From: an uncultured Bacteroides sp.
GTDB taxonomy: Bacteria; Bacteroidota; Bacteroidia; Bacteroidales; Bacteroidaceae
Reading direction: 5' to 3'
DNA: 64,000 bases
NCBI GenBank assembly: GCA_949289265.1
Contig: CASENE010000104.1
Coordinates: forward strand, 32,329-96,328
Shown here: one piece after another, positions 60,339 to 64,000 of the stretch
Layout: each line of letters begins with the position of its first letter
Position numbering within the stretch: position 1 is the first letter of the stretch
The notes under the pieces: generated by a model
What the model saw: only the letters and a program-made list of their open reading frames with translations
Told to the model about the DNA's origin: nothing
Databases searched by the model: none
Position numbers and translations under genes: made by a program

Positions 60339-62670
60339 TCAGTCCGCCCGTCGCAGCAGTTTCTGGTTGCCGCTCCGGCTCTTGAAGTTCGTCTTCACCG
60401 CATTGAACGTATAGCGTACCGTCAGGTTCGCGCCTCGGGTGTCATACCGGTTCCGTCGCCAATAGCTTGTGTCCCCGTAATTGTTTTCCCACCAGGGGGT
60501 CACTCCTTTGGCAAACAAATCCTGTCCCTCCACAGCCACATACAACTTGTCCTTGCAGAACTTTCCGGATATGCCCACGTTCGTGTTCAGCGAATACCCG
60601 ATTTTCTGCGTGCCGTCCCGCCAGGGCGGTATAGTAGGTGTTGGCATACACTTCGAAATGCTTGCAGAATCCATAGCTGACGTAGATGCCCAGCGAGGTA
60701 TGGTAGTTTTGGTAAGAGGTTATCTTCCCTAAGTACGGGTATTTGATGTATGCTCCCGTGAAGTATCCGAAGGCCGACAGATACAGCGTCTTGTGCGACA
60801 GCGCATATTCCAGCCCTACGTCCCACTCCTGCGAATGGTCGATGTTTTCCGGTCGTTCCACCAGGATGTTGGGATTCTCTTCCCCATGCCCGTAGACAGA
60901 CACGATGGGATTTTTTCGGTAATAATAATTCGCCCGTAAGGTCAGTGCCGCCCAGTTGGCCGTGAACGAGAACGTATTGGTAAACGTAGGTTCCAGCAAC
61001 GGGTTGCCTGTCCAGTAGTGCAGCGAGTCTTCATAGTTCACTATCGGGCTCAACTGGCTGAACGACGGCCGGCCGATGGTGCGGCGGTAGCTGAGGCTGT
61101 AGTTAGCCCGGTCGTTGGGCGTATAGCTGATACGTGCATTGGGGAAGAAGTCCGAATACGTCTTTCGCAAGGTGGTCAGTTCGCCGCCTTCGGTCGCTTT
61201 CGTGCGCGTGTAGTCATACTCATAGCGCAGTCCCAGCGTCAACCCCACCTTGCCCCAGGTCTGTTGATACGTCCAGTAAGCCGCCAGCCATTTGTTTTGT
61301 CGGTTCAGGTGTTGAAGGCCCTCGTCGATGCGCGTGCCCGAATGATTTTGGGTATAGCCCGCTTCCACGCCTATCCTTTCCGCATCCTTGCCGGCCAGCC
61401 GGAAAGAATAATCTCCGTTGAAGGTATAAATGTCATAGTCGCTGTAGTTCAGCGTAGGCGTCAGATACGTCTGTGCAGTCGTCAGATTCCTCTCTTCCAC
61501 TTCTTTCGCAGTCTCATTGTGCCGGGTGGCGTAGTCTGCAATCAGTGTCAGTGCTGAATGTTCGTTGCGGTTCCATACATAACTGGCCGACACGCTGTGC
61601 GACTTTTCCTCTTCTGTTCCGTCCGATGCTTCTTTCTTGCGGGTCTGCCGTCCGTTGTTGTCCAGCAGCAGGTCGTGGCTGGTGTAAGTATCCGCATTCC
61701 TGAAGTTGCCCGAATATTGCACCCCCAGCGTATGCTTGGGCGAGAACGTAAAGTTCAGGCCGCCGAACACGGTGTACCGGTTTGATTCCGCCCCGAAACC
61801 GCCGTCCGAACTGTTGCGGAACACATCGTTTTCGCTATGCCGGATGACTGTCTCGTAAGCGTCATACGAGCGGTTCTCCACCCGGTTGTAGCTGAACGAC
61901 AAGTTGCCCGACACGATGCCGCTTTTGCCCGTCAGGTTGATGCGCGGATTCTCTGCATATCGTCTTCGCAGCGTGAACGAGTTTGTCACGCTGGCCCCCA
62001 GAAAATCTTTCAGTTGTTTCTTCAGGTGGATGATTACCACCGCCTGCGTCCCGTTCTTGTAGCGCGCGTCCGGTTCGCGGATAATCTCTATGCTGTTCAC
62101 GTCGGTCGACGACAGCACTTCCAGTTCCGACTGGTCTTTCACCTGCCTTTCGTTGATGTAGACAAGCGGGCTTCCGGCTCCTGCCACCCGGATGTTGCCC
62201 ATACCGTCCACCATCACTCCCGGCGTCCATTTCAGCATGTTCTTCAGGTTGCCTGCATCCCCGATGTGCGTGCCCTGCACATTGCGGATGGTATAGTTGG
62301 GCCCATCCTTCACTATCTCGTTCTTTTTGGCCCGCACCACAACCTCCTGCAACTGGAAGTTCCGCCGGTAGAGCGTCACCTCGCCCACGTCGTTGCGTCC
62401 CGGTTGCAAGGTTTTTCGCACCACTGCCGGCTCGTATCCGTCGGCCGAGAAGTTCAATACAGCCTCCCCCGTCGAGTCTACGGCAAACTCAAAGTCCGGT
62501 TCATAAAAACTGCCCGTGATGTTCTTCAGCGAGTCGTGTGCATACCTCATCTCGATGCGGAAAATCATTTCCTCGTTGTCTGCCGAAACCACTCTTCCGG
62601 CCACCTTGTTTTGAGCGACTGCCTGCAGTGCCAGTCCGCAAAATGCGATGATAAGACCGATGTTCTTCAT
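60339..62670 (-). pseudogene. Outer-membrane beta-barrel receptor (TonB-dependent type), frameshifted near the 3' end
   Basis: About 777 residues if repaired. Signal peptide ends LALQAVAQ. A carboxypeptidase-like domain (AGRVVSADNEEMIFRIEM) is followed by a plug (QEVVVRAKKNEIVKDG, GAGSPLVYINERQVKDQSELEVLSSTDVNSIEII) and a long barrel (NARISYTPNDRANYSLSYRRTIGRPSFSQLSPIVNYEDSLHY), as in the outer_membrane_beta-barrel_3 family. Near 60617-60619 the frame shifts: YANTYYTALA continues in the next frame as DGTQKIGYSLNTNVGISGKF and ends LLRRAD at 60339. One extra G in a GGG run explains it. The unshifted frame instead runs on to 60442 with nonsense sequence. Loss of about 90 residues would remove the last strands. 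It could be a sequencing error. Confidence 0.8.
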
Positions 62671-62706
62671 GTTTATTAGTTTTTGATAGATTTCCTGCTT
62701 ATTCCT

Positions 62707-62724
62707 ATGCTAAAAACGTGCCAA
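62707..62724 (-). promoter_or_regulatory. Sigma-54 (RpoN) promoter of the beta-barrel receptor
   Basis: The minus strand reads TTGGCACGTTTTTAGCAT. GG (-24) and GC (-12) are separated by exactly 10 bases; the match to TTGGCACN5TTGCT is high, with one change in the -12 part. The start codon lies 37 bases downstream of the element. No sigma-ABfr box competes here. Confidence 0.75.
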
Positions 62725-62778
62725 AACAGCTATCTATCAGATATACAACAAACAAGAGGATACAGCCCCCAAAGAGTG

Positions 62779-62816
62779 TGTCTAATAATTAGACAGCAGT
62801 GTCCAATAATTAGACA
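62779..62816 (-). promoter_or_regulatory. Two 17-bp dyads, probable enhancer-binding sites
   Basis: TGTCTAATAATTAGACA (62779-62795) and TGTCCAATAATTAGACA (62800-62816). Centres are 21 bases apart, two helical turns. They lie about 65-86 bases upstream of the -24 element, the normal place for an NtrC-type activator. Confidence 0.75.
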
Positions 62817-62844
62817 CTTCGCCTTCCCGATGTATCTGCCATAT

Positions 62845-62880
62845 AAGTAGATGTTCATAATTAGTTTATATCATATAGAT
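62845..62880. repeat. Element B, left-end fragment
   Basis: AAGTAGATGTTCATAATTAG matches the first part of element B with a few changes and then diverges. It lies about 18 bases before the full copy 3. Confidence 0.5.
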
Positions 62881-62898
62881 TTGATACCTTTGCCTTAT

Positions 62899-63078
62899 AA
62901 GTAGATGCGCAAAATTAATTGATACTATCTTTAGAAGTGACAGTGAGTTACAGGAAGTTAGAAGAAATGATGAACCAATAGCTGCCCCGGCGATATACAT
63001 AAAGGCATTGGCTTCTGACTTCTGGAGCGAAGCGAAAACTCCTTCTAACTTCTTTTGACTCTTTCTGACTCCTGGAAG
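62899..63078. repeat. Element B, copy 3 (diverged)
   Basis: Begins AAGTAGATGCGCAAAATTAA; keeps TTGATACTATCTTTAG, CTGCCCCGGCGATATACA and TGGAGCGAAGCGAAAACTCC. Its arms read GAAGTTAGAAG and CTTCTAACTTC, so the stem is preserved by paired changes relative to copies 1 and 2. The right end lacks the TATAAACTAAAT tail. Confidence 0.8.
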
Positions 63079-63167: not shown

Positions 63168-63860
63168 TTATCCCAATGGCGTTTCGCCACTGCCGCCTCC
63201 CGTTCCGGTACCGCCACCGGGTTGTTGGGTGCTGGCTTCATTTTGCAGGCACGTGCTGTTCGACACTTCCCGACCGTCCGCGCTGCAAAAACTCAGGTAG
63301 ACAGCCAGCGCATCTTCGGCCCATGCCGTCGGCAAAGTCAGTTCGGCCGTGCCGTCAGCCCGTGTGCCCGCCTGTGTGTCATACACTGCCTCGCCTTTGT
63401 CCTTGTCATACGCCAGCACCATCGCCACGTCATCAGCCTTTGCACTTCCCACGCCGCTGTTGTCTGTCCAGCTGAAAGTCGCCTTTCCGCCTTCCACCGT
63501 CACGTCGGCGTCCGCTGCCTTGGTCAGCGGCCCCTTGCTCAACAATGCTTTCTGGAAGTTTACGGTCGCGCCGGCCTCGCAGCCCTCCACGGCATTTTTC
63601 AGCACCTCCGACATAGCCGCGCTGAAAGTCGACTGGCCCGCTCCGCAGTTCCTGTAGCCGATGCGCAAGTACGGCGTCACCGTTTTCAGGAAATCCATGG
63701 CGGCAGCAAACCGCTTTCTTTGGCACTGCTGTTTTTCCGTGTTGGCATCCGCATAACTGTTCGCCAGCGAACGCATGTAGCTGATGGAGTTCCACGTGCT
63801 TCCTACCACGGTTCCCACTTTTCCCGAGAAACCTCCCAGGATACCTTTCTTGATAATTCC
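63168..63860 (-). pseudogene. DUF6266 protein gene lacking its start
   Basis: About 231 codons. The first sense residues, IIKKGILGGFSGKVGTVVGS, match the DUF6266 N-terminus (normally M, one or two residues, then IxKGILGGFxGKxG). Upstream of ATT at 63857 come only two codons and a stop, and no ATG. A GTG at 63818 would remove the conserved opening. The C-terminal part ends Gly/Thr-rich. The missing start coincides with the edge of the transposase-bearing element to the right, so the element most likely cut off the start codon and promoter. Confidence 0.7.
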
Positions 63861-63922: not shown

Positions 63923-64000
63923 ATGAAAGCAGACGACCTCCTCAGAGCCATCCTCCCGGATGTGCTGATAGACAATTTCGACGTGGTGAACTTCGAGAAA
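63923..64000 (+). CDS. ISAon1-type transposase N-terminal protein, first 26 codons
   Basis: MKADDLLRAILPDVLIDNFD followed by VVNFEK resembles the opening of ISAon1-family transposase N-terminal region proteins of Bacteroidetes (M..xLLxLILPxxLxxNFDLV). The gene continues beyond the right edge. The assignment rests on 26 residues. Confidence 0.5.
   Translation, partial: MKADDLLRAILPDVLIDNFDVVNFEK

Follow-up and report, generated by a model that had tools for sequence, protein, structure and literature searches.

The NtrC/glnA system is a sigma-54 two-component system with an NtrC-family regulator (receiver, AAA+ and Fis HTH domains) and tandem upstream activator sites. The locus described here resembles it in the domain order of the candidate regulator, encoded on contig C69 of the same genome, in the −24/−12 promoter and in the paired dyads, which are two helical turns apart and within the usual upstream range, but differs in the predicted targets, MacB-type efflux operons and an outer-membrane receptor, and in the regulator motif, GAFTDA instead of GAFTGA. 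The dyad, TGTC-N9-GACA with an AT-rich core, presumably also differs from the NtrC site. The duplicated MacB/FtsX-type permeases ADOP/DarB share the MacB_PCD and FtsX domains with a permease encoded next to the second site of this genome (contig C56), but the latter remains below the cut-offs of TIGR03434 (186.5 of 622.3 bits) and NF038008 (54.6 of 700 bits). Sigma-54 control of COG0577 permeases has been predicted in Bacteroidia, and sigma-54 dependence is stated for the B. thetaiotaomicron proteins GrpE and GroES, in the accessible text of PMC12316311. The kind of target, FtsX-like or antimicrobial-peptide-type ABC permeases, is the same as here; however, that portion of the paper names no activator site, cognate regulator or receptor target for the COG0577 permeases. 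The accessible portions of PMC3162934 and PMC10434189 have no bearing on the module. Among the literature matches listed, which cover few subscription papers, no study gives a sigma-54 activator with its DNA site and targets in Bacteroidales.

The window, that is, the whole stretch of 64,000 nucleotides that was analysed, is located on contig C104 of a 3.03-Mb genome (108 contigs, 93% complete) and contains the following features:

62800–62816, no strand assigned: distal 17-bp dyad TGTCCAATAATTAGACA, exact match, member of a conserved tandem pair; presumed activator site
62779–62795, no strand assigned: proximal 17-bp dyad TGTCTAATAATTAGACA, exact match, member of the same conserved pair; presumed activator site
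62725–62778, minus strand: 54-bp spacer between dyads and promoter, conserved in length
62708–62724, minus strand: putative −24/−12 sigma-54 promoter element TTGGCACGTTTTTAGCA (TTGGCAC-N5-TAGCA), conserved in position
60442–62670, minus strand: predicted receptor of the TonB-dependent type (PF14905), 742 codons open, with homology in frame ending at residue 682
60339–60674, minus strand: overlapping frame, the last 100 residues of which match the C-terminus of receptor homologues

These coordinates agree with the preliminary description, which had placed a TTGGCAC-N5-TAGCAT element of exact GG-N10-GC geometry 37 bases before the receptor start and two 17-bp dyads, 21 bp apart from centre to centre, about 65–86 bases further upstream. 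In TTGGCACGTTTTTAGCA, the GG (62722–62721) and the GC (62710–62709) are separated by ten bases within a TGGCAC/TTGCW-like context in which TAGCA replaces TTGCA, 37 bases lie between the element and the receptor ATG at 62670, and the distance from the GG up to the dyad centres (62787 and 62808) is 65 and 86 bases, respectively. A transcript start would be expected near 62697. The dyad pattern is found twice in the window but never in 100 shuffles, and a chance origin of the dyads was rejected on this ground. The pattern of TTGGCACGTTTTTAGCA has one exact match in the window, and because 7 of 100 shuffles reach this count with at least one match, the −24/−12 match alone is poor evidence and within chance; its combination with the dyads is beyond chance. 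Allowing one mismatch, TGGCACN5TTGCW is matched 8 times in the window versus 3.1 expected. A sigma-70-like match (9/12) at 62784–62757, overlapping the proximal dyad region, counts against the sigma-54 reading. A terminator or a simple repeat was rejected as the identity of the dyads, given that the predicted stems are short and the distance to the promoter is fixed across genomes. Just past the dyads, an imperfect direct repeat, ATAAGTAGATG...CA.AATTA, is present at approximately 62842–62864 and 62896–62918, and a DUF6266 (PF19781) gene (63168–63818, minus strand) points at the dyads; position 64000 is the last of the contig.

A search of the entire genome for the dyads beside RpoN promoters and for NtrC-family genes, both suggested in the preliminary description, showed that dyad pairs and promoters coincide at two places. 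Exact dyad pairs are present in the window and at C56:22136–22173, the runner-up being a single dyad site with two mismatches, and the two exact matches to TTGGCACN5TNGCA fall at the same two places. Chance pairing of dyads and promoter can be rejected from this coincidence together with the fixed distance across genomes. The promoter on contig C56 faces a MacB_PCD/FtsX permease gene, after which come genes for an ABC ATPase and another permease, suggesting that this site drives a MacB/FtsX-type ABC efflux operon. A single RpoN (C43:10080–10553, PF04552) is encoded in the genome, along with five clear sigma-54 activators, one of which is cut by a contig end, and three weak matches.

When as many as three mismatches were allowed, the tandem dyad pattern was found at 18 places in 16 of 301 genomes of the family, including G074 and G055, which were below the initial score cut-off and were admitted after inspection; the reversed pattern, used as a control, gave 0 in every row. 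TGGCA is located 53–55 bp from the dyads in all 18 of these dyad-selected places, and in three of them the GC of the −12 element is replaced by GT. A second collection, gathered with a stricter, exact dyad pattern, comprises 29 stretches, all of which we take to belong to Bacteroidales taxa. In this collection, GGCA is found 52–55 bp from the nearer dyad in 27 stretches, a count that takes in L206 (promoter on the lower-ranked strand) and L203 (third dyad), and TGGCA in 26, the promoter of L211 reading AGGCA; the 18-place and 29-stretch counts are not independent, because several genomes are common to both. Three tandem dyads in 21-bp steps precede the promoter at L203:7769–7827, the spacer of L199 is exceptional among the 29 stretches in its length of 62 bp, and L213:6629–6666 from Mediterranea massiliensis, with tandem dyads but no promoter at the usual distance, is perhaps a decayed site. 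Named isolates that carry the module include Bacteroides ndongoniae (Marseille-P3108) and Caecibacteroides pullorum (AN421), both of which appear to encode the C69-type regulator as well. The preserved promoter distance at dyad-selected sites and the presence of RpoN support the original proposal that a sigma-54 promoter with paired dyads precedes the receptor gene.

At E ≤ 0.01, a sequence-only profile built from the 18 dyad-selected sites, R1, has matches in 235 of the 398 genomes of the family; among the matches listed, which are not necessarily full-length, the best one reaches E ≤ 1e-9 in 125 of the 398. Among 247 genomes of the order, R1 has matches at E ≤ 1e-7 in 19, of which 15 come from 12 other families. 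Ten R1 matches reaching the promoter end of the model are found in G653, a genome from another family (loci L234–L241), representing a far larger regulon. Closer comparison drew on a non-random sample of loci, 60 with strong or multiple matches and another 15 taken from the order. Across 114 distinct sites, the two dyads are separated by four bases in 83, by five in 28 and by another number in 3; the spacer to the promoter is 52–55 bp in 82 of the 83 four-base sites and 62 bp in one. Many sites share a TGATNATCAG-like stretch within the spacer (alignment A1, columns ~74–85), which is perhaps the site of a bending protein; it fits poorly to what we take to be the IHF consensus.

The usual targets of the module appear to be efflux operons: 101 of the 114 sites precede efflux-type genes, 5 precede receptor-like genes and 8 are unassigned. 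By similarity, the first gene encodes an FtsX permease at 60 sites, an outer-membrane efflux protein at 30, an ABC ATPase at 10 and HlyD at one. PF14905 was confirmed in three of the five receptor-like first genes (OMP_b-brl_3 kind), namely, the window gene and two genes of G291. Among the receptor-like genes, one is a frame of 115 codons with 70% identity over 91 residues to a G291 receptor, and that of L169, with 21.7% identity and carboxypeptidase-regulatory-like domains, gave no match to PF14905 in the profile search. The four sites of G291 (L084, L085, L123 and L124) lie before the two PF14905 receptors, a short receptor-like frame and an efflux protein that adjoins the regulator. As for the eight unassigned sites, no suitable gene is present in the stretch at L134, L195 and L203, DUF3836 genes follow at L173 and L237, a gene for a PF00144 protein at L238 and a permease-like fragment at L201. 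The remaining site, L199:1230–3228 from a Bacteroidales MAG, precedes genes for a 66-residue peptide, which scores 21.3 of 25 bits against TIGR04149, that is, below the cut-off, and for a radical-SAM maturase which passes TIGR04148.

No sigma-54 activator is listed on contig C104, in line with the initial remark that the window lacks an NtrC-type activator gene, and the regulator should therefore be encoded elsewhere; comparison of neighbourhoods points to contig C69, which is distinct from the contigs of both sites (C104 and C56) and carries the following pair:

L049:7677–9032: sensor kinase (PF02518) gene, adjoining the response regulator gene
L049:9029–10384: response regulator gene, with receiver (PF00072), sigma-54 AAA+ (PF00158) and Fis HTH (PF02954) domains

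The response regulator thus unites the domains of an NtrC-type regulator in a single protein, and a kinase is paired with it. Frames of at least 150 codons around 77 of 78 sites (the window being left out), drawn from strong and multi-site matches and hence not random, were compared with the five activators of this genome and the C69 kinase, the only regulators scored systematically. A sigma-54 activator is found in 40 of the 77 neighbourhoods, a lower bound, because contig ends cut many stretches, and 37 show none. All 40 are closest to the C69 regulator, with 57–81% identity compared to 38–50% for the other activators of the genome; each of the 40 genes lies upstream of the site and is divergently oriented, with a frame matching the C69 kinase alongside in 39 cases.

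The distribution of sites across genomes conforms to this assignment. At cut-offs of E ≤ 1e-9 for the site and E ≤ 1e-130 for the C69-type regulator, the latter also letting in a second activator type (~55–57% identical), 122 of the 398 family genomes have both, 3 have the site only (G032, G210 and G544), 23 have the regulator without a strong site and 250 have neither; the genomes with one of the two count against the assignment. In the genus, the respective numbers are 58, 1, 1 and 35, so that the regulator is encoded in 58 of 59 site-bearing genomes versus 1 of 36 others. For C58, the sole control activator compared, the corresponding counts of both, site only, activator only and neither are 58, 1, 21 and 15 for the genus; for the family, they are 76, 49, 56 and 217. 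Hence, C58 is associated with the sites too, but far less sharply than the C69 type; p-values carry little weight here, because the genomes are related rather than independent. Overall, the regulator of the module is probably the C69-type two-component regulator.

The receptor gene is less straightforward. Its product matches the beta-barrel profiles PF14905 (153.2 bits, cut-off 27) and PF00593 (42 bits, cut-off 27), but no plug domain (PF07715) was detected at E ≤ 0.001, and it is for this reason that we do not claim a classical TonB-dependent receptor. The gene is frame-broken near 60624 and does not continue as one frame through the C-terminal strands: identity to homologues is 59% up to residue 682 and 74% over the last 100 residues, which are encoded in the other frame. 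Because of this break, a working receptor product is uncertain. At E ≤ 1e-130, homologues are found in five other genomes among the 158 of the genus, with identities of 58–61% (G177, G074 and G367) and 37% (G804 and G307); a further homologue, in G344, is in pieces and appears at a looser cut-off. The relatives in G367 and G074 adjoin radical-SAM/SPASM-type maturases, of which that of G074 passes the SPASM domain and PF04055 models, while neither reaches the named NCBIfam maturase models. The G367 neighbourhood also encodes an ABC exporter with a C39 peptidase and a LanC-like protein slightly below the Pfam cut-off. No maturase-type neighbours were seen for the receptors of G177, G307 and G804 among the frames listed, most of them without profile search. 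The maturase and exporter neighbours hint at peptide ligands for the receptor.

Conservation of the promoter together with the receptor within the genus was rejected, as all five homologues lack the module: R1 gave no match at E ≤ 1 in the flanking sequences retrieved, which for G074 and G804 extend ~1.5 kb upstream. Instead, the receptor promoter looks like a copy of the efflux promoter that has diverged. Spacer identity between the two sites of this genome is 75%, compared to 42–57% for each of them against 14 other scored sites, and 300 shuffles give no more than 61%. Similar spacer identity is reached by close relatives elsewhere (92% for G249/G293 and 73% for G062/G080), as shared descent predicts. 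The similarity between the two promoters spans from approximately ten bases above the dyads down to the start codons. The spacer of the G330 efflux promoter (L200) is more similar to that of the efflux promoter of this genome (0.69) than to that of the receptor promoter (0.59), the pair from this genome scoring 0.62 in the nine-sequence alignment that contains L200; this fits copying from the efflux operon to the receptor, perhaps not very recently. A misassembled copy of the C56 promoter is unlikely, since the spacers differ at a quarter of positions and a different gene lies downstream. The end of contig C104, which bears on misassembly, coincides with that of the window. The most plausible reading is that the receptor, possibly inactive, was recruited in this lineage through promoter duplication.

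Given the parts and their spacing, the co-occurrence with one regulator type and the likeness of the two promoters, we consider it likely that the module is an NtrC-type two-component sigma-54 switch which recurs in Bacteroidales, usually controls efflux, and was joined by the receptor through a promoter copy. The C69 kinase would phosphorylate the adjoining response regulator, dimers of which would bind both dyads, located ~90 and ~111 bp upstream of the start with two helical turns between them, and assemble into an active ring. Looping across the 54-bp spacer would bring the ring to the RpoN polymerase at the −24/−12 element, and ATP hydrolysis by the ring would open the promoter. The usual target of the C69 system would be the MacB/FtsX-type ABC efflux operon, represented on contig C56, and a copy of its promoter, ~165 bp long, would have landed before the receptor gene, bringing it into the regulon.

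The sigma-54 elements might be real but served by another of the five clear activators, with the C69 type merely travelling with efflux operons. The number of candidates, the 37 neighbourhoods devoid of an activator and the association of C58 with the sites in the genus are in its favour, but every site-adjoining activator is of the C69 type, and in genus genomes lacking the site the C69 type is nearly absent (1 of 36) whereas the control, the sole one tested, is present in 21 of 36, which renders this explanation improbable. Even lower is the probability that the dyads are the target of some unrelated dimeric regulator that works on another promoter, the −24/−12 match being accidental. Many regulator families presumably suit dyads of such size, a sigma-70-like match is close by and the −24/−12 match alone is within chance; nevertheless, the promoter is kept at 52–55 bp in nearly all dyad-selected sites, and these cluster with one activator type, as judged from the activators and kinase that were systematically scored.

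Compatible with the two-component switch proposed above, and unlikely but deserving serious weight, is the possibility that the switch works at the efflux operon while the window copy, standing before a decayed receptor gene, is now functionless. The broken frame near residue 682 and the rarity of receptor homologues in the genus speak for it, but the window dyads and promoter are intact, and in a genome of 108 contigs an error of assembly or sequencing could account for the broken frame.

The two-component switch offers a regulator, a DNA site and targets for Bacteroidales sigma-54 together, as one testable unit, and the receptor is a candidate natural case of a gene joining an enhancer-dependent regulon through promoter duplication. 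Judging from the efflux targets, the switch may respond to peptides or drugs. A bolder reading, quite tentative and in our view rather unlikely, is that of a dedicated NtrC-type envelope response of Bacteroidales to peptide antibiotics, with a regulon that grows by copying of an operator–promoter cassette. If so, the regulator and its tandem operator would switch on MacB-type efflux, the cassette would have been copied before surface or peptide genes, such as the receptor gene or the precursor and maturase genes of L199, and the peptides handled by the receptor would be of the class that the pump expels.
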